A stretch of DNA of 38,960 nucleotides from Atopobiaceae bacterium (lineage in GTDB: Bacteria > Actinomycetota > Coriobacteriia > Coriobacteriales > Atopobiaceae). Where the stretch lies: the NCBI GenBank assembly GCA_017652285.1, contig JAGCBF010000031.1, forward strand, positions 1 through 38,960. Reading direction: 5' to 3'. How positions within the stretch are numbered: position 1 is the stretch's first letter; every line of letters starts with the position of its first letter. The position numbers were made by a program, and so were the translations under genes. A model generated the notes under the pieces. The model had not been told where the DNA came from and ran no database searches. It saw only the letters and a program-made list of their open reading frames with translations. Of the stretch, positions 1-38,960 are shown in pieces.

Positions 1-76
1 CGAACCGCCGCGTGGTGGTCAGTTACGTCCGCAGCGAGCAGCCCACGTCCCGCAAGCCCCAGAGCAGAGAGTGGGC
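1..76. other. Probable foreign or chimeric end sequence
   Basis: Bases 77-86 (CTGATTGCCG) are identical to the last 10 bases of the window. Joining the sequence there restores an uninterrupted tail-fibre reading frame. The first 76 bases therefore have no place in the circular phage map. In the displayed frame they encode a short tail ending in a stop at 23-25, with no resemblance to the fibre family. I saw no second copy of this stretch in the window. It may be an assembly chimera or a real alternative junction; the sequence alone cannot decide. Confidence 0.6.
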
Positions 77-922
77 CTGATTGCCGCCCGCATCGCACCT
101 CGTCACCGTGGGCGTGTTCGTGAAGTACGGGGCGATATGGTCGGGTTCCCATATCGTGTAGAGCGCGAGGTCGGCATCGGTCGAGTAGGTATCGCCGGGC
201 ATGTATGTCGTGCCCGTGCCGTCTGCGGCGGTGTTCCACTCCTTGAAGTGGTAACCCGTGAGCGTGTAGCCGCAGGAGGCGATGGAGGCATCGGTGCCCT
301 TGACCTTGACCGTGTCGGCGGTGGTGCCCGTGGCGGACGGGTCGTTGGCGTCATACGAGATTATGTAGGTCTCGAGCGGGGTGGTGTACGTGCCGCTGAT
401 TGAGACGGCGCTCGAGGGCACGTCAGACATGGTGGTGTAGAACGTCTTGGAGGAAACGGTGATGCCCGGGCCGACCGTGCCGCAATCGGTCACGATATAC
501 GGCTGATTGTACCAAATGATGTTGCCCGTTATCGTGGCGCTCGCGGGGTAACCCGTGCGCTGATTGGTGTTGAGGGTGGAGAAGAAACGGCCTACCGCGT
601 TGGCACCCGTGTAGTCCACGCCCGCCTCGTTCACGCCCGTCGTAGGCTTGGAGTTCAGGCGTTGGATGAGGAGCGAGTTCCTCGTATGGTAGTTGTTGAC
701 TACGGTGCCGGTCGTCGACCATGTGCCGTACTGCGCGATGATGTGATTTGCCAACTCGCTCGAGTCATCCGACATGAGGAAACGGACGGCGGCCTTCTGC
801 CACGACTCGCCGCCTCCCGTGCCGCTCGATACCGTCCATGTGGTGACGGGCCAATATGTCTTGCCGTTCCAGGTGATTGAGGACTCGCCCGGTATCTTGT
901 GGTCGTCGATATACGCCATCAT
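23..922 (-). CDS. Tail fibre / minor structural protein, N-terminal part (continues at 38960)
   Basis: This is the N-terminal part of a receptor-binding or baseplate protein following the tail-tip gene, whose stop it overlaps (ATGA at 919-922). Residues 1-180 form a Thr/Ser/Gly-rich structural region. Residues about 187-258 match an InlB B-repeat (Listeria-Bacteroides repeat), with the hallmarks YHFKEWNTAADGTG and ALYTIW. At about 274-282 a typical fibre motif, TRCDAGGNQ, starts and should continue as DDEGTKF. That continuation is found at the other end of the window (38950 downward). The last 17 displayed residues come from the chimeric end. The joined gene is 1,725 nt, 574 aa. A host-receptor role is inferred from position and domains. 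Confidence 0.8.
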   Translation of the reverse strand: MMAYIDDHKIPGESSITWNGKTYWPVTTWTVSSGTGGGESWQKAAVRFLMSDDSSELANHIIAQYGTWSTTGTVVNNYHTRNSLLIQRLNSKPTTGVNEAGVDYTGANAVGRFFSTLNTNQRTGYPASATITGNIIWYNQPYIVTDCGTVGPGITVSSKTFYTTMSDVPSSAVSISGTYTTPLETYIISYDANDPSATGTTADTVKVKGTDASIASCGYTLTGYHFKEWNTAADGTGTTYMPGDTYSTDADLALYTIWEPDHIAPYFTNTPTVTRCDAGGNQAHSLLWGLRDVGCSLRT

Positions 923-2883
923 TCGCTCCCTTCATACACCTTGAACGACAGATGCCCGTTCGAGCGGTGCTCGATCACGTAGGTGTAGGCGTTGCTGTTC
1001 GGATTGGTGAACATAGCCTGCTGGTGGCGGACAATCGGCGTGTCGAGGCGCGAGCTGTCGAGGACGGTGAGCGATGAAGCGCCGCCCGAGGATAGGGTGA
1101 CCTGCGATGAGGCCATCGTAACCTGCGAACTTCCGTTCGTTAGAACGAGGCCGCCGCTCGACATGGCGAGCTGCTGTGTCGGCGAGGTGCCGATGGTGAT
1201 GTTGTTGTTATCGATGCGCAGGTTCGTCTGCGCGCCGTTGTTCAGGGTGATTGCGTCCGCGCCAATGTCGGTATGGAACCCGCCTGCGGTGGCGTCGGTC
1301 GAGATACGCAGCACCTTGCCGCCGTTGCCGTCGTCTATGAAGTCGCAGAAATTGGCGGGGTTCGCGTTGACCATCGCCCATCTGTCGGGGAGCGAGACGC
1401 CGCCCACCACGCCTGCGGGAGCGAACACGAAACTCACCAACTGCCGCTCGTTCCATGTGTAGGTGGAGGGGTAGTTAAGCGGCGCGTTGTTCGCGTAGAT
1501 CGGGAACGTGCCCGTACCGTTGACGTTCATGGTGGGCGCGGAAACCTGATTGGTGAAGGCGAACCGAACCGTGATGCCCGCTCCGGCGTAGAGCGTGAAC
1601 CCATCGAGCACCACGTCCTTGTCAATCGTGGCGGAGGAGGTGTCGCAGGTTCCGTAGACTGCCGTCGTCTGCTCCTGGAGTGCCGCTACCTTGTCGGATA
1701 CCACCTTCGTGGAGGACGCGATGCGCGCGGCGATAGAGGTCTGCGCCGCCTCGGTTTTCTGTATCGTCTTTGCGGATATGGTCGTGGACAGTCCGCCGTT
1801 GTAGGTGTGGCGAATAGTGAAGGGAACAATGAAGTCCGTTGTCGTGACGCCCTTCATTGTTCGCTCGACGCTCATGCCGTCGAACGGTTCGATGTATGGC
1901 ATGCCCTTGATGGTGAGCGTGTGCCCTTGGTAGTGGAGGTTGCGGTACGGCTCCCCCACGAACTGATAGGGCATGAAGCGCCCATAGACAGTCTGCAACG
2001 CGGAAGTATCGGAGAAGTAGGTGTTGTCGAAGGACAAACCCACGCTCCCGGGCGCGAGGCTTTCGACCGTGGCGGCATCGGGATACTGCTCATCGTAAGA
2101 GCCGCTGTCACCTACCACGTTACAGGACACGTAGGTGATGAATGTCTTGTCCTTGCCGTCTATGTCGCAGGACTTGTACTCGTTCGGCGTGATTTGCAGC
2201 GCCGCGTCGATGGTGGTGAGGTCGGGAGGCTCCGTTGCGGGGAACGCGCACGTGATGGTGCCGGTGTTGCTCGCAATCAGGTTGCAACCCGCCGCGACCG
2301 CGAGGCGCGAGAGAACCTCGCGCACGGTCATGGTGTCCTCGATTATCACAGGGGTGTCTCCCGTGGTGTCCACGAGGCTGTAATCGAAGGACAAACCCGT
2401 GTACACGCTTGCGAAACCGGAAAAATTGTCGTATGTCGGAAGTGCGGCATCGAAGGTGGCGGTGGCGAAAAGCGGGTCGATTGCCTCATCCATGACCGCC
2501 GACATGAACACGTCGTATGCCACCAACTGCGTGAACAGGCCCATGTCCTTCGTCTGGCTGTCGTCGATCCAGAAAACACCCTCTTGGATGAGGGTGGGAA
2601 CTCCCGCAATCTCGAAACCCATGTACGGCTCGACCATCACGCCGTCAAGCGTCGCGAAACCCGCAAGGGATGAGGTGAGCACGGTCATGTGCAGCGTCGA
2701 GGCAACCGTCGAACCCAAGGTGAACGTCGAGGAGGAGCAGGCGGAGCGCTCGACCGTGAACTCCTGTATCTCGTTCTTGGTGAGCGTCGTGGTGACGCCG
2801 TTCACCGTGAGGTCGAGCGTGCCGAGGCATATCCTCGCGTTCGCCTTCGCCGCCGTGACATATCCGGGAGGTACGCTTATCAT
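919..2883 (-). CDS. Tail-tip / baseplate hub protein (Tal-like minor structural protein)
   Basis: A 654-aa structural protein encoded two genes after the tape measure, the usual place of the tail-associated (Tal/gp27-like) protein of Gram-positive siphophages. The first roughly 380 residues resemble a hub domain: a beta-rich start, a middle part with the repeated pattern expected of hub barrels, and FIVPFTIRHTYNGG near its end. A short helix at about 390-415 (QTSIAARIASSTKVVSDKVA) leads to a Ser/Thr/Asn-rich beta-solenoid-like C-terminus. I chose ATG 2883 because a GGGGGA ribosome site lies just upstream and the preceding gene stops at 2892; an upstream extension lacks a good site. No peptidase motif was recognised. 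Confidence 0.75.
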   Translation of the reverse strand: MISVPPGYVTAAKANARICLGTLDLTVNGVTTTLTKNEIQEFTVERSACSSSTFTLGSTVASTLHMTVLTSSLAGFATLDGVMVEPYMGFEIAGVPTLIQEGVFWIDDSQTKDMGLFTQLVAYDVFMSAVMDEAIDPLFATATFDAALPTYDNFSGFASVYTGLSFDYSLVDTTGDTPVIIEDTMTVREVLSRLAVAAGCNLIASNTGTITCAFPATEPPDLTTIDAALQITPNEYKSCDIDGKDKTFITYVSCNVVGDSGSYDEQYPDAATVESLAPGSVGLSFDNTYFSDTSALQTVYGRFMPYQFVGEPYRNLHYQGHTLTIKGMPYIEPFDGMSVERTMKGVTTTDFIVPFTIRHTYNGGLSTTISAKTIQKTEAAQTSIAARIASSTKVVSDKVAALQEQTTAVYGTCDTSSATIDKDVVLDGFTLYAGAGITVRFAFTNQVSAPTMNVNGTGTFPIYANNAPLNYPSTYTWNERQLVSFVFAPAGVVGGVSLPDRWAMVNANPANFCDFIDDGNGGKVLRISTDATAGGFHTDIGADAITLNNGAQTNLRIDNNNITIGTSPTQQLAMSSGGLVLTNGSSQVTMASSQVTLSSGGASSLTVLDSSRLDTPIVRHQQAMFTNPNSNAYTYVIEHRSNGHLSFKVYEGSE

Positions 2884-2891
2884 CGTCCCCC

Positions 2892-3284
2892 CTAGAACTC
2901 GATAATGTCGAAGGTAGCGCCGTTCCACAGGTCGAGGTGGAAGTTGTAGGCGGGCAACGTCCTATCGCCTACGTAGAACGTGCCCGTGTAGTACCCGCTG
3001 GGTTGCGTCGGGTCGACGATGGTAGCGGTGAAGGACGTGTGGACAACCCCCGAGACAATCTTCATGATGGGTTGCAGCTCCGCCGTGTGCATGGGCGGGA
3101 GCTGTATCTGGCATGAGCGTTTCTCCCCCACCTGATTGCGTTCCATCATGCCGCTCGCCACGCGCCCCGTGTCGTAGTCAACGCCCGAGATTACGAGCGA
3201 GTACTCCTGCGGGGAGAACGTGACCGTGTCCACGCCGTCCGTGATTGTGATTTTGAATGTGTCATCCAATACCAAGGGTGGCAT
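2892..3284 (-). CDS. Tail protein of DUF6711 type (distal tail-like)
   Basis: A 130-aa protein directly after the tape measure. The pattern is that of a small family I remember as DUF6711: SGVDYDTGRVASGMMERNQV, then KRSCQIQLPPM, then FYVGDRTLPAY and a final WNGATFDIIEF. Such proteins sit between tape measure and tail-tip protein in Gram-positive siphophages and probably cap the distal tail tube, a Dit-like job. The gap to the tape measure is 9 bases. The family name is from memory; the structural role is inferred from position. Confidence 0.7.
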   Translation of the reverse strand: MPPLVLDDTFKITITDGVDTVTFSPQEYSLVISGVDYDTGRVASGMMERNQVGEKRSCQIQLPPMHTAELQPIMKIVSGVVHTSFTATIVDPTQPSGYYTGTFYVGDRTLPAYNFHLDLWNGATFDIIEF

Positions 3285-14659: not shown

Positions 14660-14749
14660 GGCATTTTATGCAGTTTCGGGAGTATTACCGCCTGATTTCT
14701 GGCATTTTTATGCAGAGTTACCGCCTGATTTCTGGCATTTTATGCAGAG
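14660..14749. repeat. Tandem 32-33 bp repeats upstream of TerL
   Basis: Two adjacent near-identical units, 14685-14717 (33 bp) and 14718-14749 (32 bp), differ by a single T in a T run. Each begins TTACCGCCTGATTTC and ends with GCATTTTATGCAG, itself a short palindrome (GCAT-TTT-ATGC). A third, partial copy of the last part is at 14660-14673. Their position beside the TerL gene suggests a terminase recognition (pac/cos) site or an iteron-type origin. Neither can be shown from sequence alone. Confidence 0.75.
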
Positions 14750-18591: not shown

Positions 18592-19179
18592 ATGAGATAC
18601 GGATACGTGCGAGTGAGCTCCGCCGAGCAGAACGAGGGCCGGCAGCTTGAGAAGATGGACGCGCTCGGCATCAGCCGCGAGTGCGTTTTCGTGGATAAGG
18701 CGAGCGGAAAGAGCCTCGACCGGCCCGCATGGAACGCGCTCCGCCGGGTGGTGCGCCGTGGCGACGTCATCGTGATCGACAGCCTCGACCGCCTCGGGCG
18801 CAACTACGACGAGGTGACTGCCGAGTGGCGCAAGCTCACCCGGGAGCAGGGCGTGGACGTGGTGGCGCTCGACCTCGAGTTTATGAACTCCGAAAACTTC
18901 CGCAACATGGGGGAAGTCGGAAAGCTGCTCGAGGATATGGTGCTCAATCTGCTTGCCTGGGTTGCGCAGACGGAACGCGAGAAGATCAGGCAGCGCCAAG
19001 CGGAGGGCATCGCCCTCGCGAAAGCGGAGGGCAAGTACACCGGCCGCAAGGCGCGCGAGCTCGGTGCCGAGGAGATCGAGGCGATCCGAGGCATGAAGGA
19101 TGCCGAGGCCATGCAGGCGCTCGGGGTGTCGCAGGCAACCTACTACCGCTGGAAACGGGAAGGGAAGCTCGCGGGATAG
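18592..19179 (+). CDS. Serine recombinase (resolvase/invertase family)
   Basis: A 195-aa small serine recombinase. The N-terminal domain has YVRVSSAEQN with catalytic Ser (S9), the DRLGR pair R67/R70 in IDSLDRLGRN, and the E-helix region (NLLAWVAQTEREKIRQRQAE). The C-terminal part from about 150 is a helix-turn-helix (QALGVSQATYYRWKREG). Length is normal for Tn3 resolvases and invertases. ATG 18592 follows AGAAGGG. The stop TAG is embedded in an ATAGTCG motif. The phage already has a tyrosine integrase, so this enzyme probably resolves multimers, inverts a segment or is a relic of how the island moved. No matching crossover site was identified. Confidence 0.92.
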   Translation: MRYGYVRVSSAEQNEGRQLEKMDALGISRECVFVDKASGKSLDRPAWNALRRVVRRGDVIVIDSLDRLGRNYDEVTAEWRKLTREQGVDVVALDLEFMNSENFRNMGEVGKLLEDMVLNLLAWVAQTEREKIRQRQAEGIALAKAEGKYTGRKARELGAEEIEAIRGMKDAEAMQALGVSQATYYRWKREGKLAG

Positions 19180-21730: not shown

Positions 21731-21852
21731 CGTTTCCTCCGCTCGTCAAGCGCGACTAGGATGAGCGACACGCCCAGGAGGATGAGAAACACCGCCACGA
21801 CGAACATCGTTAGTCCGGCGGCGATACCGAGAGCCAATTCCCATGCAGTCAT
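21727..21852 (-). CDS. Small membrane protein (41 aa)
   Basis: A 41-aa gene joined to both neighbours by ATGA overlaps (21849-21852 and 21727-21730). The peptide starts MTAWELALGIAAGLT, continues with about 22 hydrophobic residues forming one membrane helix (MFVVAVFLILLGVSLILVAL), and ends DERRKR, so the C-terminus should stay in the cytoplasm. The function is unknown. The tight overlaps are strong evidence that it is real. Confidence 0.78.
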   Translation of the reverse strand: MTAWELALGIAAGLTMFVVAVFLILLGVSLILVALDERRKR

Positions 21853-22334
21853 TCTTCCACCACCTTCGCTCCGCACCATGGGCAATACTTAACGACGTAG
21901 CCGTACCAAGGTCTTCCGCAGGCAGAGCACCCCCAATCAAACGGTGATACTTTGTCCCCGTGACACGTCCGCAGCGGCACATAGGTTTGCAGTTCACCTT
22001 CCGACACCGTAGTGATGGGGGACATGAGTGTGATAGGCTCCTCGCGGGTGTTCCATGCTTTGATAGCCGCAGCCTCCGACGGGTAGTTGTCGATGAAGTG
22101 TCCGTGCATCTCTCCGTCCTCATCGCAGAAGATGCCCCAAACGCGCCCTTCGTTTGGGTAGTCAAGATGCCACAAGCTTGCTCCGCTGCCGCAGAATGGA
22201 CAGGGGAGCAACCCGTTGGCGTTCATGACGGGTTGCGGCTCGCCGAACAGCGGCTCATCGAACGGTTCATCGGGTGCGCAATCTTCGGGGGCATCCCATC
22301 CCCATAGCGCAATATCCCATAGTTCTTCGCTCAT
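21849..22334 (-). CDS. Lar-like restriction alleviation protein (copy 2, extended)
   Basis: A 161-aa protein. The middle LLPCPFCGSGASLWHLDYPN, FCDEDGEM and PSEAAAIKAWNTR match the Lar restriction-alleviation family, which softens host type I restriction. An additional C-terminal zinc ribbon (CSACGRPWYGYVVKYCPWCG) and an acidic N-terminus extend it. ATG 22334 overlaps the stop of the first Lar-like gene (ATGA). Whether it truly alleviates restriction is unproven; the family is often assigned on the zinc motif alone. Confidence 0.75.
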   Translation of the reverse strand: MSEELWDIALWGWDAPEDCAPDEPFDEPLFGEPQPVMNANGLLPCPFCGSGASLWHLDYPNEGRVWGIFCDEDGEMHGHFIDNYPSEAAAIKAWNTREEPITLMSPITTVSEGELQTYVPLRTCHGDKVSPFDWGCSACGRPWYGYVVKYCPWCGAKVVEE

Positions 22335-22624
22335 TTCTCCACCACCTTCGCTCCGCACCCGCCGCAGTAGATAGGTTCATCGGCTTCAACCCACCCACAT
22401 TCGGAGCACTCGAAGCGGCCTGCAATGCCGGTTCTGTCTGCGTTGCGGCACGTCCGCTCGGCGCGGGTGTTCCAGCATCGTACCGCCTTGATTGCCGTGG
22501 TGTACATCCCGGTTTCCGCACCGCACCGCATGCAACGGACACGGTAATCGAGAAAAACCGAGGAACTTTGCACAATCGCCGCCTCCCCACCGCAGAAGGG
22601 GCAGGGTTTGATGAGTACCTCCAC
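22331..22624 (-). CDS. Lar-like zinc protein (copy 1)
   Basis: A 97-aa protein with a GTG start at 22624 (GGAG site 5 bases upstream). It reads EVLIKPCPFCGGEAAIVQSS, then RVRCMRCGAETGMYTTAIKA, VRCWNTRA and a second ribbon FECSECGWVEADEPIYCGGC. This is again the Lar arrangement with an extra C-terminal zinc ribbon. The two neighbouring copies are clearly related (PCPFCG..., A-A-I/V-K-A-WNTR, C-x2-C...C-G-A-K-V-V-E) and so are a local duplication. Confidence 0.75.
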   Translation of the reverse strand: MEVLIKPCPFCGGEAAIVQSSSVFLDYRVRCMRCGAETGMYTTAIKAVRCWNTRAERTCRNADRTGIAGRFECSECGWVEADEPIYCGGCGAKVVEK

Positions 22625-32172: not shown

Positions 32173-32514
32173 ATGGAGGAGGGCAGCCTTGCCGCCAACA
32201 TCAAGAGGTTACGCGAAGAACGCGGTTTAAGCAAGACCGATTTAGGTGACTTAATCGGAACCTCCCACACGGCAATCTACCAATACGAGGCAGGGCAGAT
32301 TGTCCCGCGCATGAACAAGATACAGCAGCTCGCGGATGTTTTCGGCGTGTCGGTGTTCGAGCTCCTCGGGAAGAAAAGCGACCCCCATGAGATGACCGCC
32401 GCCGAGGTTGCCCTGATTGCCAACTACCGCAAGATGAACGCCAAGGGCAGGAATATGCTCTTTGAGCAGGCGCAGATGATGGTGGCGAGCGGAATGTACG
32501 CGAGGGAGCAATGA
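32173..32514 (+). CDS. CI-like XRE repressor
   Basis: A 113-aa repressor. The N-terminal HTH is LAANIKRLREERGLSKTDLG, DLIGTSHTAIYQYEAGQIVP and MNKIQQLADVFGVSVFELLG. The C-terminus has only about 40 residues, so there is no LexA-like cleavage domain. ATG 32173 follows GGAGGAACA; an upstream in-frame extension would read through the promoter. Its end overlaps the integrase start by ATGA, so lysogeny genes are coupled. It should repress the opposing early operon. Confidence 0.85.
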   Translation: MEEGSLAANIKRLREERGLSKTDLGDLIGTSHTAIYQYEAGQIVPRMNKIQQLADVFGVSVFELLGKKSDPHEMTAAEVALIANYRKMNAKGRNMLFEQAQMMVASGMYAREQ

Positions 32515-33554
32515 GGCGCGGCTACGGGCACATAGAGGCTCTGGGGCAGGGGCGCTACCGCTGCTATTGGCGGGAGAACGGAAGGCAGCGCTCGAAGGTG
32601 GTGCGCGGCACGAGGCGCGATGCCGAGCTGCTCTTGGCGGAGAAGGCGTTGGAGCAGACGGGTTCCCTCAAGTCCGGCATAACCTACTCCGACTATTGGC
32701 GGATTGGAGTGCGCCCGACATTCGGCAACCTTGCGGAGCGGACTGTAATCGACTACGAGCGGCTGTGGGAGGTCGAGTTGCTCCCGCGCATCGGCGGAGT
32801 GGAAGTCGAGCGCACGACATGGCGCTTCGTCCAGAGCGTGCTCGCCGAGGTGAACTCCCCCACCGTCCAGCACTACGCCTACAGGCTTTGGAAGAAGGTA
32901 TGCAACCTCGCGATCCGCGATGGACTTCTATCGGCGAACCCTGTAGATCGCCACATAGTATTATTGCCCATCAAAAAACGGGACAAGCGGATGCTCACCC
33001 CGGAGGAGGTGGCGGCGCTCCTGGAGGGCGCGAAGGACTACAAGCACATCTACCTCGTGGCTGTCGAGATTGGCGCGGGACTGCGCCATGAGGAGGCATG
33101 CGCCCTCACCCGCTCCGACATATCCTTCGAGGACGGCAGAGCCATTCTAAGCGTTTCTAAGGCTTTGACGGTAGGCAATGGCAAGATTATACGCAAGGAC
33201 ACCAAAACGGCCCTCTCACGCCGTCTGGTGGCTTTAGGGGAGCCTTTCTTGCGTGTCCTGCAAGACAATCTTGCGCGGGTGCCGGAGAATGTGGAGCAGC
33301 AGTCCTCCCCGCAGACGATTACGAGGAATTGGAAGGCGTACTGCGACCGGCACGGGTTGACGCATATCCCGTTCGGTCAGATGCGCACCCTGTTCTCCGT
33401 CCTCCATCAGCAGGCGGGTTCAATCGACAGCCTCGTGTCGCTCGCTATGGGGCACTCCGACGGCACAACCCGTGGTGCGAACTACCTAGTGCAGACGCTC
33501 CCCGCCATGCGCATGCTCGCGGACAACATGGCGCTTTTGTTTACGGAAATGTAA
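32511..33554 (+). CDS. int: Tyrosine integrase
   Basis: A 347-aa integrase. Arm/core-binding parts come first (IKKRDKRMLTPEEVAALLEG leads into the catalytic domain). Catalytic residues: R192 in GAGLRHEEACAL, a Lys in RKDTKTALSRR (about 232), R292 in QMRTLFSVLH, H315 in MGHSDGTTRGANY and Tyr325. The usual His of the HxxR box is replaced (GQMR), an unusual but tolerated change. It recombines attP, just downstream at 33785-33830, with a host tRNA-Arg gene. Confidence 0.93.
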   Translation: MRRGYGHIEALGQGRYRCYWRENGRQRSKVVRGTRRDAELLLAEKALEQTGSLKSGITYSDYWRIGVRPTFGNLAERTVIDYERLWEVELLPRIGGVEVERTTWRFVQSVLAEVNSPTVQHYAYRLWKKVCNLAIRDGLLSANPVDRHIVLLPIKKRDKRMLTPEEVAALLEGAKDYKHIYLVAVEIGAGLRHEEACALTRSDISFEDGRAILSVSKALTVGNGKIIRKDTKTALSRRLVALGEPFLRVLQDNLARVPENVEQQSSPQTITRNWKAYCDRHGLTHIPFGQMRTLFSVLHQQAGSIDSLVSLAMGHSDGTTRGANYLVQTLPAMRMLADNMALLFTEM

Positions 33555-33673: not shown

Positions 33674-33886
33674 TGGAGTAAAGTGGAGCAACGGTATGGT
33701 GCGGTATGGTGCGTATTGCTCCGTTTTGACAATCGGCTGTTATCCACCCTTCCCGAACATCTGCCGCTTGACCTGCGGCTTTGTTGGCGCGCCCAGCAGG
33801 ACTCGAACCTGCAACCACCGGATTAGAAGTCAGATAGAAGAATATGGGGTGACCTGCTGTTTTCTGCCTCATGGTGGAGTAAAGTG
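33674..33886. repeat. Direct repeats flanking attP (probable integrase arm sites)
   Basis: TGGAGTAAAGTG occurs at 33674-33685 and 33875-33886, in the same orientation, about 100 and 45 bases from the core. Between them GGTATGGTGC is repeated twice (33693-33702, 33703-33712), bracketed by GGAGCAA/TTGCTCC. Arm-type integrase sites are expected around a tyrosine-integrase core; their role here is inferred. Confidence 0.65.
33785..33830 (-). other. attP core: 3' half of tRNA-Arg(TCT)
   Basis: On the minus strand this is the tRNA 3' half from the anticodon loop CTTCTAA (anticodon TCT), through TCCGG and the T arm GCAGG-TTCGAGT-CCTGC, to TGGGCGC-G-CCA. The 5' half of the anticodon stem does not pair (TCTGA instead of CCGGA), so it is not a working tRNA. 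Integration restores the 3' end of the host tRNA gene. The integrase gene is next to it, as usual. Confidence 0.85.
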
Positions 33887-34014: not shown

Positions 34015-34800
34015 TCACCATTCGACCGTGAGGCGCTTGTCCGCGTTGTTGCTCCCGACCCAATGGAGCACGAGCGCCTGCGGGCGGGACTGCACCTGCG
34101 GCTGGAACATGCCGCGTGCGCCGTATCCCGCGTAATCGCACCACGAGCAACCCGTGACCTGCACGACCTCGCGGAGCATGATCTTGTTCGCGTTCGTGAG
34201 GCACAGGTGCGCGGGGATACGAGTGACCGGCTGGTGGCTGTGCCCCGTGACGAGGGCATCGAACCCCTCCACGTTGTTCGCCATCTGCCGCACCTTGAAG
34301 TCGGAGCCGCCGTGGAACGCGAGTATGCTGTACGCAATCCGCGTACCCTTGCTGTTGTCGCGAACCTCGGTCGAGCTCATGCGGATGCGGACTGCCGCGA
34401 AGTCCCGCCGGTACACATTCTGTATGCCGAGGCGAACCGCGACGTCGTAGAGCGGGTCAATCGAGGTTTCCCGCGCCACCCGCAGCTCGTGATTGCCCGT
34501 GAGCATGGCTAGTATCTTGCCCTCGTGTGCGAGGTTGTAGAGGGTGTCGTGTATGTACTCCATCTGCTCGCGCGGGTTCATGCCGTGGAACACGTCTCCA
34601 ACCGAGGACTTCGTGGCGGTGTCCATGAGGTCACCCGTGAATATGACGTAGGCATCGGGGTCGTTCTCGATCTCGGCAATCCAGCGCTCGAACTCCTTGA
34701 GCTGGCAGTTCTCCGCGCCCACGTGCACATCTCCGCACACCCATACCTTTATCGTGCGGGGAGCGAGCTCGTGCACGATGACGTCGGTATCAGGGCGCAT
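34015..34800 (-). CDS. Calcineurin-like metallophosphoesterase
   Basis: A 261-aa enzyme with all family motifs: VWVCGDVHVGAENC (D-x-H), VIFTGDLMD (GD), MLTGNHELR (GNH), AFHGGSDF and VTGHSHQP (GHxH). It binds two metal ions and hydrolyses a phosphoester; the substrate is unknown (DNA ends, nucleotide signals or wall phosphates are possible). ATG 34800 overlaps the endolysin stop (TAATG), so it is co-translated with the lysis gene. Its place at the end of the late operon is less common. Confidence 0.85.
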   Translation of the reverse strand: MRPDTDVIVHELAPRTIKVWVCGDVHVGAENCQLKEFERWIAEIENDPDAYVIFTGDLMDTATKSSVGDVFHGMNPREQMEYIHDTLYNLAHEGKILAMLTGNHELRVARETSIDPLYDVAVRLGIQNVYRRDFAAVRIRMSSTEVRDNSKGTRIAYSILAFHGGSDFKVRQMANNVEGFDALVTGHSHQPVTRIPAHLCLTNANKIMLREVVQVTGCSWCDYAGYGARGMFQPQVQSRPQALVLHWVGSNNADKRLTVEW

Positions 34801-35696
34801 TACTTCCAACTTCCTTCGAGCCGGACGTCGATGTAGAACTTCGGGATAGACTTGTGGGAGGACTTCACCCAGAAGTTCGCCTTGTTCTTGTAGAGCGAGT
34901 AGAACTGCACCTCGCACGCCCAACCTACGTCCGCCCTACAGGACAGTCCCGTGATGTACGGAGGCTCCGCGAACTCGGGCGCTCCGTCTCCCTGCATGCT
35001 CGGGAACTCCAGCACCTTGGAGAGATAGTATCCGTTGCGGTAGGAGGTGCCGTTGCCTCCGTTGAAGTAATCCGAGACGATGCACACGAGCTTGCCGCTC
35101 GCCCACTTCTCCCACCTGTAGGAATACTTCTGCTGCGCGAACTGATGCGCCACGTTGTTGCTGCCCTCGCCGATAATGTAGTCAACCGCTTCGCCTGCTG
35201 GCATCGGTTCCACCTCCTGCGGCCACTTGACGGCGGGAACCGTCTCGGGCCAATAGAAATAGCCTTCCCAACCCTTCCTCGCCGGACTCAACCGCGTCTC
35301 CTGCGCTTGGTCACCCGCACGGCCTCCACGGGAGCCTCCCGCCTCATCGCCGTATGCCTCGCACAGGTAGCGTCCCGTCCAGCCTGCCGTATGCCCCGAT
35401 TTCCAAGCGATTGCGCCTGCGGGCATGTTCGCCGCGTTCACCTCATTAATCCACTTGAACCCGGCGGCTTGAAAGTCACGTTTCATGGTGCCCGTGTACC
35501 GCGTCCCGCTCGTGGGGAGCGCGAAACCCGCGAGCACCGCGCAATGGTACATGAGCGAGGAGCAATCGCACTCCCCCGCGTACTGCGTATCGCCGTACTT
35601 CGGGAAGTCCCAGCGGTTGCCTTGGTCGTAACCGAGGTTCGCCTCGCCGCAATACCACAGCCACAGGTCAATCATCTTCTGTACTCGTGCGTCCAT
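34800..35696 (-). CDS. Endolysin (NlpC/P60- or CHAP-type peptidase)
   Basis: A 298-aa lysin. The N-terminal catalytic domain has GYDQGNRWDFPKYGDTQYAG and GECDCSSLMYHC, with the second-block Cys as nucleophile and the His in IAWKSGHTAGWTG. The C-terminal part (from about 170) is rich in Trp/Tyr, likely wall-binding. ATG 35696 follows AAGGAGGTGAC; an upstream frame start would run into the holin stop and hairpin. It degrades the host wall at the end of infection. The holin-like genes lie directly upstream. Confidence 0.85.
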   Translation of the reverse strand: MDARVQKMIDLWLWYCGEANLGYDQGNRWDFPKYGDTQYAGECDCSSLMYHCAVLAGFALPTSGTRYTGTMKRDFQAAGFKWINEVNAANMPAGAIAWKSGHTAGWTGRYLCEAYGDEAGGSRGGRAGDQAQETRLSPARKGWEGYFYWPETVPAVKWPQEVEPMPAGEAVDYIIGEGSNNVAHQFAQQKYSYRWEKWASGKLVCIVSDYFNGGNGTSYRNGYYLSKVLEFPSMQGDGAPEFAEPPYITGLSCRADVGWACEVQFYSLYKNKANFWVKSSHKSIPKFYIDVRLEGSWK

Positions 35697-35716
35697 GTCA
35701 CCTCCTTGGCAACACT

Positions 35717-35747
35717 CCGAAAAGTGTGTTTTCACACACTTATTCGG
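35717..35747 (-). promoter_or_regulatory. Hairpin between holin-like gene and endolysin
   Basis: On the minus strand CCGAA-T-AAGTGTG / CACACTT-TTCGG forms a 12-bp stem with one bulged T and a 6-base loop. It spans the holin-like stop and precedes the endolysin ribosome site by about 10 bases. No T run follows, so it probably tunes endolysin translation or mRNA stability instead of ending transcription. Confidence 0.55.
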
Positions 35748-36033
35748 AACGCTCATCCTCGCCGGCGGCCTTCGCCTCCTCGAGGAACACGCTCACCTGG
35801 TCAGGAGTGAGCACCTCCTGCTTGATAGCGTCGAGGACTTCCTGCCCGAGGCACGCCGCCACGGTCAGGTTGTGATTTTTCCAGCACGCCCACGCCACGA
35901 GCGCCACAATCGCGATACCCATGCCGATTGCCTCGCCGGTGCTCTCATCGAGGTGGATGCCGAAAAGACCGGCAATCGTCACGATGAGGATGCCGAGCAT
36001 TGACACGAGGCTCCTGATTTGTTCTTTGTTCAT
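35740..36033 (-). CDS. Holin-like membrane protein (phi LC3-type)
   Basis: A 97-aa protein with two hydrophobic segments: SMLGILIVTIAGLFGI and AIGMGIAIVALVAWACW, then NHNLTVAACLGQEVLDAIKQ and an acidic end. The length and two-helix pattern match the phi LC3/LL-H holins. It should pierce the membrane to release the endolysin. Start ATG 36033 behind AGGAGAGACGC. Confidence 0.78.
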   Translation of the reverse strand: MNKEQIRSLVSMLGILIVTIAGLFGIHLDESTGEAIGMGIAIVALVAWACWKNHNLTVAACLGQEVLDAIKQEVLTPDQVSVFLEEAKAAGEDERSE

Positions 36034-36086
36034 GCGTCTCTCCTATCGACCAAGTACGTCCGTTCGCCATTTTCGGGGGAACATAC

Positions 36087-36416
36087 CTAATGCCCGTCGG
36101 GAATTGGCGTCCCCTTTATCGGCATGTTCTTCGCCTGCTTGACTAGAGCGTCGATATAGGTGTTGCCTCCAAGCGCCTGATAGCTCTCGTAGGAGCGGCA
36201 CATGACGTCCAGCTCCATCGGCGTGATGTACCCCCTATCCGAAACCTCCTGGTACTTGGTGACAATATCCGACTTGATTTGCTGGCGCTGCGAGTCCTTG
36301 AGGACGGTGTACTCGTCCGTCATCTTGCGGTAGAGCTTGATGAGCGCACCTCCGATTGCGGTCACCACCGCGAGCGTCAACCCTTGGAGAAGTCCCGGCA
36401 GTACAGTCTCAAGCAT
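36087..36416 (-). CDS. Membrane-anchored holin-associated protein
   Basis: A 109-aa protein with one N-terminal membrane segment (LLQGLTLAVVTAIGGALI) and a charged helix. The C-terminal 'YITPMELDVMCRSYESYQAL', then GGNTYIDALVKQ, is a phrase I know from small proteins next to Gram-positive phage holins ('YITp.EL.nl..lY..YhaLGGN'). It may be a second holin or an antiholin. The exact role is unknown. Confidence 0.7.
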   Translation of the reverse strand: MLETVLPGLLQGLTLAVVTAIGGALIKLYRKMTDEYTVLKDSQRQQIKSDIVTKYQEVSDRGYITPMELDVMCRSYESYQALGGNTYIDALVKQAKNMPIKGTPIPDGH

Positions 36417-36418
36417 GG

Positions 36419-37051
36419 CTACCCCCCTATCAGATCGACTAGATTGATACCGTATACACGCGCCGTATACGCATTATTGATGGTGCCCGTCGTGGTGCTG
36501 TTGTAGCGCATATAGATGGGCATGGTGACGTTGCTCCCGCTGATTGACGCGGAGTTCGGATAGATGCCGTAGGAACCCGTGCGCGAGGATACCGTGCCGT
36601 TCGAGCTTGCTTTGAAATTGAGGCGCGTCGTATACGGCGAGGAGCCGTTCTTCGTCGATACGGTTGAGGAACCCGATAGGAATATCGTCTCGACCGTGCT
36701 GAGGTGCCTGCCGTTCACCGCCGAGTCCACCGAGATTTCCACGACAAGCAGGTCGTAGCCGTGGGCGTTGCTCACGGTGACGCTCTTGCCCGTGTCGGTT
36801 GCCGAGGTGGCCGTTGTCGAGATTGTGCCGAGCGATACCGTGGCTATCGGCGTGAGCGCTCCGCCCGATGCGGTGCCTGCGGTGCGCACCCCCGCTGCGG
36901 TGTAGAAATACTTGCCGCTCGCCACATCAGCCGCAGCCGCCGTGGTGTCCGTGACGTCGGTGAATGATGCCGTGCCGCCGCCGCTCTTGGGAAGGGTTAC
37001 GGACGGGACAGCGGAATAGGACGCTCCCAAGAGGGTGATATTCTGCGCCAT
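36419..37051 (-). CDS. Tail fibre accessory protein, paralogue A
   Basis: A 210-aa Ser/Thr/Gly-rich structural protein. Residues 1-60 (LLGASYSAVPSVTLPKSGGG, TASFTDVT, then VASGKYFYTAAG) are closely related to the N-terminus of the next gene (37060-37458). The C-terminal 100 residues (VSNAHGYDLLVVEISVDSAV, SISGSNVTMPIYMRYNS) form a beta-rich tip and differ. Such paralogues often carry interchangeable tips. It lies between fibre and holin genes. Confidence 0.75.
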   Translation of the reverse strand: MAQNITLLGASYSAVPSVTLPKSGGGTASFTDVTDTTAAAADVASGKYFYTAAGVRTAGTASGGALTPIATVSLGTISTTATSATDTGKSVTVSNAHGYDLLVVEISVDSAVNGRHLSTVETIFLSGSSTVSTKNGSSPYTTRLNFKASSNGTVSSRTGSYGIYPNSASISGSNVTMPIYMRYNSTTTGTINNAYTARVYGINLVDLIGG

Positions 37052-37059
37052 GACCGCTC

Positions 37060-37458
37060 CTAACTGATGGACAGCACCTTTGTGGTCGAGTCCTGCGAGA
37101 TATTCGGCATGGCGAGCGTGCCGGTCACGCCGAGAATGGACTTTCCTGCGAGGATGTTGCCACCAACGCAGTCCGAGACGTTGCCGAGGCCGACTGTGCC
37201 GCCGCTGGTATAGCCTGCGGGGATGGTGTAGGTGCCGTTCTTGGTGCTGATGGAGCCGCCGAGTGCGCCGTTGTTCGTCATGGAACCCGTGTCGATGCCG
37301 GACGCACCGCCGAACTTCTTTCCGTCGAGCACGTCCGCAGCGGAAGCGTCCGCGCCGGAAATGTCGTAGAACTTGGCGGTGCCGCCGCCGCTCTTGGGAA
37401 TGTCGACCTCCGGCACGTTGGAGTAGCTCACTCCATTGATGATTACGTTTTGCGCCAT
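37060..37458 (-). CDS. Tail fibre accessory protein, paralogue B
   Basis: A 132-aa protein starting MAQNVIINGVSYSNVPEVDI, PKSGGGTAKFYDIS and continuing DVLDGKKFGGASGIDTGSM. Its N-terminal module is shared with the neighbour. The rest (NGTYTIPAGYTSGGTVGLGN) resembles the common fibre repeat 'G.YTIPaGYhsG.G.V'. It probably sits on the fibre or baseplate. Confidence 0.75.
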   Translation of the reverse strand: MAQNVIINGVSYSNVPEVDIPKSGGGTAKFYDISGADASAADVLDGKKFGGASGIDTGSMTNNGALGGSISTKNGTYTIPAGYTSGGTVGLGNVSDCVGGNILAGKSILGVTGTLAMPNISQDSTTKVLSIS

Positions 37459-37466
37459 TTGTCCTC

Positions 37467-37733
37467 CTAGGAAACTGTCAGGGTCGAGCCGTTCCAGGTT
37501 ATCAATCCGTAATTGCTCGGAACGGGGTCGACCAAAATATCGGAATAGACGCTCGTGTTCTTGGTCAAGAGCACCTGCGCCTCCGCAGAGGGTGTCACCC
37601 TCGTTGGGCCATCATACGCGGGGAGCGAGGCTCCCGCGCCGCCTCCGCCGATGCGGATGTTCACCGAGTCCCGCGCTCCCCCGTGGAGAACGACGGCATC
37701 GGAGGGGCGGACATTCAGTATCAGTCCGCCCAT
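37467..37733 (-). CDS. Tail fibre accessory protein (88 aa)
   Basis: An 88-aa protein from ATG 37733 (GGGGC site) or ATG 37745. A middle YDGPTRVTPSAEAQVLLTKN leads into SVYSDILVDPVPSNYGLITW and NGSTLTVS. The phrase 'vTPs.e.qvL.T....y.dI.i.piP.NYGlItWnG..ltVs' is widespread in small structural proteins of gut siphophages. It overlaps the previous gene by 13 bases. Virion location is inferred from that family. Confidence 0.75.
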   Translation of the reverse strand: MGGLILNVRPSDAVVLHGGARDSVNIRIGGGGAGASLPAYDGPTRVTPSAEAQVLLTKNTSVYSDILVDPVPSNYGLITWNGSTLTVS

Positions 37734-38062
37734 GTGTTGCCCCATTCGTCAAGCAGGATAGAGCCGTCGACCTTCATGTGTCCGACGGGTGTCCCGACGA
37801 TTGAGCCGTCCGTGAACTGAACCTGCGCCTGAACCTCGACGAGCGGGGTCGGGAACGCGAGCGTCTCCGCCTGCGTGAGCGGGACAAGCCAACGTCCCGT
37901 GTAGCGTCCGTTCGCATACTCGGCGACAATGTCGCCGTCGGCGTAGGACTTCTCGAGGCTCCCCATCTTCACGCGCATGTCTGCGCAGTTCTCTGGAGTG
38001 ATTGCCTCACCATCCGACAACTCAACGGTGATTGGAAGTGCGTACTGATCTCCTTGCTGCAT
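37721..38062 (-). CDS. Baseplate/fibre-associated protein (113 aa)
   Basis: A 113-aa beta-rich protein. MQQGDQYALPITVELSDGEA, CADMRVKMGSLEKSY, then RWLVPLTQAETLAFP and VEVQAQVQFTDGSIVGTPVG resemble BppU-like small baseplate proteins ('...LPLTQ.ET..', 'vq.QVrf.dG.V.gT..g'). It follows the fibre gene with an AAGGAGG site. The role as a fibre neck or baseplate wedge is inferred. Confidence 0.72.
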   Translation of the reverse strand: MQQGDQYALPITVELSDGEAITPENCADMRVKMGSLEKSYADGDIVAEYANGRYTGRWLVPLTQAETLAFPTPLVEVQAQVQFTDGSIVGTPVGHMKVDGSILLDEWGNTWAD

Positions 38063-38071
38063 CTGTCCTCC

Positions 38072-38960
38072 TTATTTCCATCTGCCAATCGAATGGAAGT
38101 AGAGCTGTCCTGTCGTGTTGCTGCCCGTCGTCGGGCGCAAGAGGCCATATGCCCTCGTCTGCACCTCTGACGTTGAGCCGCTGCGCGTATACATGAAGGT
38201 GTCGAGGCCGGTAGCGCTCGCACGCGCAATCTCCACCGGCCCGGAGACGAACAGTCCGGTCGGATACGCGATTTGCGGAATGGAGTTGTGGAAGTACAGA
38301 CTGCCCCATGCCGTCCACCCCGAGATCGACCATGTGGTCTGTCCCCAACACTCCGACTTGCCCGAGTTCCACTTGGCATAAGTCCATATCCCGCTCGTGC
38401 CGGTTTCGACGATGAAGTCCGCGCCGACATTTGAGAGTATCGCAACGATGAGCTTCTTGAGCGAGATCACGTCGGTATCGTTGTATACGCCGCTGATGCC
38501 CGCTGCGGTGATTGCCGCCGCGAGCGCGTCATCCTGGGCGTGCCCCGGCAGGAGCGTTAACTGCTCATCCCATGCCGCGCCGATGGTAAGCGCGCCGTTG
38601 AAGTCGGCGGATACGGCCTCGGGAGCGCTCGTGCCGATTGCAACCGAGTTATCGCCGTAGAGGTCGAGCGGAAAAGCGGTCGTCGAGATGAACGTCTGGA
38701 ACGTATCCCCCGGCCCGTATGGGTCGGCGAGCGATATGCGCACGTTGTAGGCGCTCGCCTGCGATAGCGTGACGCCCGCCGCGTAACCCGCGTAGGAGCC
38801 GTCCGTGTTCGTTGTGAGGGTGAGCGTGGCGCTCGACCACGTGCTTGAACTCGTGAGCTTGTACTGCACAGTCTTGGTAACGTCCGTGTACACGGTGTTC
38901 GGGTCGTGTCCGTAGGTGAACGAGACGAGGAACTTCGTGCCCTCGTCATCCTGATTGCCG
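38072..38960 (-). CDS. Tail fibre / minor structural protein, C-terminal part (runs off window end)
   Basis: The frame is open through the right edge (GNQDDEGTKFLVSFTYGHDP upstream of the first possible start) and continues into the N-terminal part at 87-922 through the 10-base shared sequence. Joined, the gene is 1,725 nt, 574 aa. The C-terminal half has NTVYTDVTKTVQYKLTSSST, an AFPLDLYGDNSVAIG segment and PTTGSNTTGQLYFHS near the end. These match the DUF859-type fibre core ('...DeGTy..v.f.w', 'a.plDi..dn.vAig'). The last residues end at 38072. It is probably a receptor-contacting part of the tail. Confidence 0.85.
   Translation of the reverse strand, partial: GNQDDEGTKFLVSFTYGHDPNTVYTDVTKTVQYKLTSSSTWSSATLTLTTNTDGSYAGYAAGVTLSQASAYNVRISLADPYGPGDTFQTFISTTAFPLDLYGDNSVAIGTSAPEAVSADFNGALTIGAAWDEQLTLLPGHAQDDALAAAITAAGISGVYNDTDVISLKKLIVAILSNVGADFIVETGTSGIWTYAKWNSGKSECWGQTTWSISGWTAWGSLYFHNSIPQIAYPTGLFVSGPVEIARASATGLDTFMYTRSGSTSEVQTRAYGLLRPTTGSNTTGQLYFHSIGRWK

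Follow-up and report, generated by a model that had tools for sequence, protein, structure and literature searches.

The window analysed here, a stretch of 38,960 b that makes up one entire contig (C128) of a draft genome (364 contigs, 3.05 Mb, 91.8% complete), is the genome of an ordinary temperate tailed (siphovirus-like) phage, and it is very probably a circular genome that was opened within its tail-fibre gene and that carries about 75 foreign bases at its left end. The large terminase, portal, major head protein, tape measure, major tail protein, holin and tyrosine integrase are all encoded on this one contig, and it was by this gene set that we recognised a temperate tailed phage. Features that bear on the reading of the contig ends are collected in Table 1. 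Neither Rfam families nor a complete tRNA were found in the window. Searches of viral, genus and genome collections with the fibre halves and the neighbouring tail genes returned no near relative of the phage, and no intact junction at the DNA level in such a relative. Two repeats were observed away from the contig ends. Just upstream of the terminase gene, at 14674-14739, TTTCGGGAGTATTACCGCCTGATTTCTGGCATT is repeated in tandem as two 33-nt units that are 85% alike and may serve as a regulatory or packaging site. A direct repeat of 29 nt (93%) lies at 21849-21877 and 22331-22359; its copies fall at the 3' ends of a pair of adjacent small genes, which encode similar zinc-ribbon-like C-termini (GAKVVEE and GAKVVEK).

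Table 1. Positions of the contig-end, fibre, tail, lysis and recombination features in the window.
Feature	Position	Strand	Remarks
Extraneous contig-end piece, resembling an unrelated gene's 3' end	1..75	+	...NRRVVVSYVRSEQPTSRKPQSREWA, then stop; frame from base 3, TGA 78-80
Terminal 11-base match CCTGATTGCCG, left copy	76..86		
Tail-fibre gene, 5' half	77..922	-	Listeria-Bacteroides repeat domain (Flg_new)
Tail gene immediately upstream of fibre	919..2928	-	ends ...HLSFKVYEGSE
Hin/Gin-type serine recombinase	18592-19179	+	phrog_125 DNA invertase, E 4e-45
Tyrosine integrase	32511..33554	+	
attP candidate	33784..33831	-	3' part of tRNA-Arg gene adjoining integrase
Small tail proteins, holin-like genes, probable lysin	34800..38062	-	follow fibre across the join
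Holin-like gene	35740-36033	-	phrog_263; within the 34800..38062 block
Tail-fibre gene, 3' half	38072..38960	-	phrog_2712 (tail fiber protein) match in the C-terminal part
Terminal 11-base match CCTGATTGCCG, right copy	38950..38960		contig's last bases

The evidence for a circular map begins with the two ends of the contig, which share an identical stretch of 11 bases, CCTGATTGCCG. The initial annotation had described this match as 10 bases long (77-86); the match is real, and its length is 11. The sequence has no further copy elsewhere in the window, and extension to a 12-mer produces a mismatch. When all window 11-mers from base 1000 onwards were considered, 6 of 37,949 recurred within the first 100 bases, corresponding to a chance probability of ~1.6e-4. 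The extra piece to the left of the overlap had been counted as 76 bases and comes to 75-76 b, depending on where the boundary is placed inside the shared 11-mer. Joining the contig at the overlap brings together 836 b of the fibre gene (87-922) and 889 b (38072-38960), and the resulting 1,725 b read as 574 codons plus a stop with no change of frame, exactly as the arithmetic of the initial annotation had it. Left unjoined, the 5' fibre half continues as ...RCDAGGNQAHSLLWGLRDVGCSLRT and reaches a stop at base 23 after 18 extra residues; this is the premature stop that had been ascribed to bases 1-76. The closed circle, about 38,874 b in length (38,960 - 86), would read ...CCCTCGTCATCCTGATTGCCGCCCGCATCG... 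across the join. The fibre matches the phrog_2712 profile (E 2e-7) over its C-terminal 120 residues only, at profile positions 580-699 of 700. Its Flg_new (InlB-type, Listeria-Bacteroides) repeat lies at 158-367 of the window, or fibre residues 186-255, and is of the same kind as repeats in many large proteins of the host genus.

Homologous fibres were found to run through the position of the join. We searched the 574-aa joined fibre against genus and family genomes and obtained four uninterrupted fibres that align through the junction, two from one genome (G003, L016 and L032) and one each from two others (G080, L060; G072, L061). All four carry the motif RCD..G..DDEGT, or a divergent form of it, at the junction. 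In the closest relative (G080) the sequence at this point is RCDSQGVADDEGTY, compared with RCDAGGNQDDEGTK at the join, and over a longer stretch APKITSLTAVRCDSQGVADDEGTYMKV stands against APYFTNTPTVTRCDAGGNQDDEGTKFLV in the joined fibre. The family motif that joining was said to restore, DAGGNQDDEGT, is indeed present in relatives, in the forms RCDSQGVADDEGTY, RTNSSGASQDDGTY and VRWQNNKADDSGTQ. A control profile, built solely from the four relatives' fibres, was used to score every join that results when 0-60 b are removed on the right and 0-160 b on the left of the contig (9,821 joins, 4,795 distinct proteins). Of all 9,821, the microhomology join ranked first with 87.1 bits, followed by the next different join with 85.1 bits; the contig as assembled scored 52.9 bits and the median join 51.4 bits.

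Gene order is likewise continuous across the closed ends. Both G080 and G003 have the fibre as one open reading frame directly after a tail gene, which in G080 ends ...NMTLKWLESGE where the equivalent gene of the present phage has the C-terminus given in Table 1. In G003 the fibre is followed by a holin-like and then a lysin-like open reading frame, and the same order is obtained here once the ends are joined, so that the genes are continuous and the tail-fibre-holin-lysin order is unbroken. tRNA-like matches to the attP candidate were found across the genus; the candidate itself was not called as a full tRNA. The contig reads straight through the attP candidate, which indicates an excised or circular form of the phage and not a prophage in a host chromosome. 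Taken from the sequence, then, the circular map is well supported by the reading frame, by homology through the junction and by synteny, and the attP candidate fits with it; the artificial cut in a circular genome proposed in the initial annotation stands. As a separate observation, the draft host genome contains no exact match to the attP-like tRNA-Arg 3' end; the best match there (82%) is on contig C204. Either the draft lacks the contig with the tRNA, or binning placed the phage with the genome of an organism other than its host.

Bases 1-75 are part of neither half of the fibre gene. Read on the plus strand in the frame from base 3, their GC content by codon position is 0.58/0.54/0.92, and the third-position value resembles the third-position bias of the genes in the window (0.67-0.89); the same phase on the minus strand contains a stop. 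By these measures the piece resembles the final 25 codons of an unrelated plus-strand gene reading toward the phage. Searches at the DNA level of its own genome, of 15-16 genus genomes, of 140 family genomes and of 398 class genomes returned no meaningful match. The family genomes gave only stretches of 19-40 b at 83-100% identity (E 0.001-0.009), which are chance-like in GC-rich DNA, and a looser search of the own genome gave only matches of 14-23 b. Exact patterns of the piece recovered nothing from viral and genome collections; phage records held no match, plasmid records held two 31-b chance matches only, and the piece does not recur elsewhere in the window. The 25-aa peptide matched nothing outside the window at better than E 0.28, and its matches form no family. 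We infer from this absence from everything searched that bases 1-75 are foreign to the phage.

The explanation that we favour is the following. The phage map would be circular, whether as an excised circle, a replicative concatemer or permuted virion DNA, and the assembler would have broken it at an arbitrary point within the tail-fibre gene. About 75 foreign bases would have been kept at the left end, joined to the phage at the 11-base microhomology CCTGATTGCCG, and their most likely source would be a chimera, in a library molecule or a read, or an erroneous extension where the assembly graph breaks. The true neighbour of base 76 would then be base 38949, and the true fibre a normal 574-aa protein. 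A chimera formed at the microhomology, be it in a library molecule, a read or an assembly path, is the simplest source of bases 1-75, and the status of these bases as an artefact, like the way in which it arose, is deduced from the pattern described above. The overlap that remains when a de Bruijn assembler closes a circle is normally k in length, and not 11 bases (PMC10914622, PMC8116208). Since the overlap here is not of k length, the proposed artefact leaves the exact assembly step unexplained.

Alternatively, bases 1-75 might be true flanking DNA, from a minority of phage molecules that recombined with or integrated into another replicon at an 11-base core. The resemblance of the piece to the end of a real gene agrees with this, as does the clean 11-base direct repeat at the boundary, which is what a recombination core would leave. 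However, the tRNA-Arg attP that the phage itself carries next to its integrase is far from the fibre site, and neither the host genome nor its congeners contain bases 1-75. For these two reasons integration at the 11-base core is unlikely, and it would moreover split the fibre gene; we regard this account as improbable. More broadly, that bases 1-75 mark a real alternative junction, with a second recombination core in the fibre that either joins another replicon or swaps sequence, appears very unlikely.

The initial annotation had left the choice between an assembly error and an alternative fibre end. We favour an error of library or assembly, as deduced above, and disfavour the alternative end. 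In the latter case, phase-variable inversion or cassette exchange would supply a second 3' end, truncated after the 18 extra residues, and the DNA-invertase-like serine recombinase of the window would perhaps be the enzyme acting on it. Since a recombinase of the invertase type is encoded, we tested for an invertible fibre end. Over the 9 kb that surround the join, inverted repeats did not exceed shuffled expectation, and no Hin/Gin-like (hix-like) site in the fibre region was better than those in shuffled sequences. A Hin/Gin-type invertible fibre segment was rejected, there being no inverted recombination sites flanking the fibre end. Furthermore, bases 1-75 have no second copy in the window or the genome, the codons that they add are unlike those of any fibre, and their coding signal lies in the opposite orientation, leaving the alternative end with hardly any credibility. 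For the serine recombinase itself, no inverted target sites could be recognised in the tail region. That the contig is a linear fragment whose end match and in-frame join are coincidental would suit an overlap of only 11 bases, below the 20-b threshold of CheckV (PMC8116208), but the overlap alone has the low chance probability given above, before frame, motif, best profile rank and synteny are considered, and we consider this reading barely tenable.

If the phage genome is circular and was opened in its fibre gene, as we propose, the split gene and the extra piece are a bookkeeping error and not new biology, and their value is mainly in setting the record right. The deposited sequence has the fibre gene in two pieces, one of them with a false 18-residue C-terminus, and a closed phage genome of ~38.87 kb would be entered as a fragment, its overlap being too short and too far offset for the usual circularity rules. 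Continuity of frame and motif across contig ends can recover genomes that such rules miss.

Among known cases, the contig resembles those with a direct terminal repeat (DTR) in CheckV or those called 'self_circular' by COBRA, whose ends overlap as the assembler opened a circular or concatemeric genome. CheckV calls a contig circular when its ends are identical over at least 20 b (PMC8116208), and COBRA expects an end overlap equal to maxK, or of at least minK (PMC10914622). The present contig differs from both in that its overlap is 11 b, neither of k-mer length nor of at least 20 b, and sits 75 b inside the left end, behind the extraneous sequence; with an overlap this short and offset, the stated rules of both CheckV and COBRA would miss it. 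In the meeting of unrelated sequences at a short shared stretch, here of 11 b, it is like microhomology-mediated chimeric reads or library chimeras. The fibre itself resembles the phrog_2712 fibres with Flg_new repeats in phages and prophages of the family, with which it shares the C-terminal match, the repeat, the RCD..G..DDEGT motif and the position between tail and lysis genes, and from which, once joined, it differs by sequence divergence alone.
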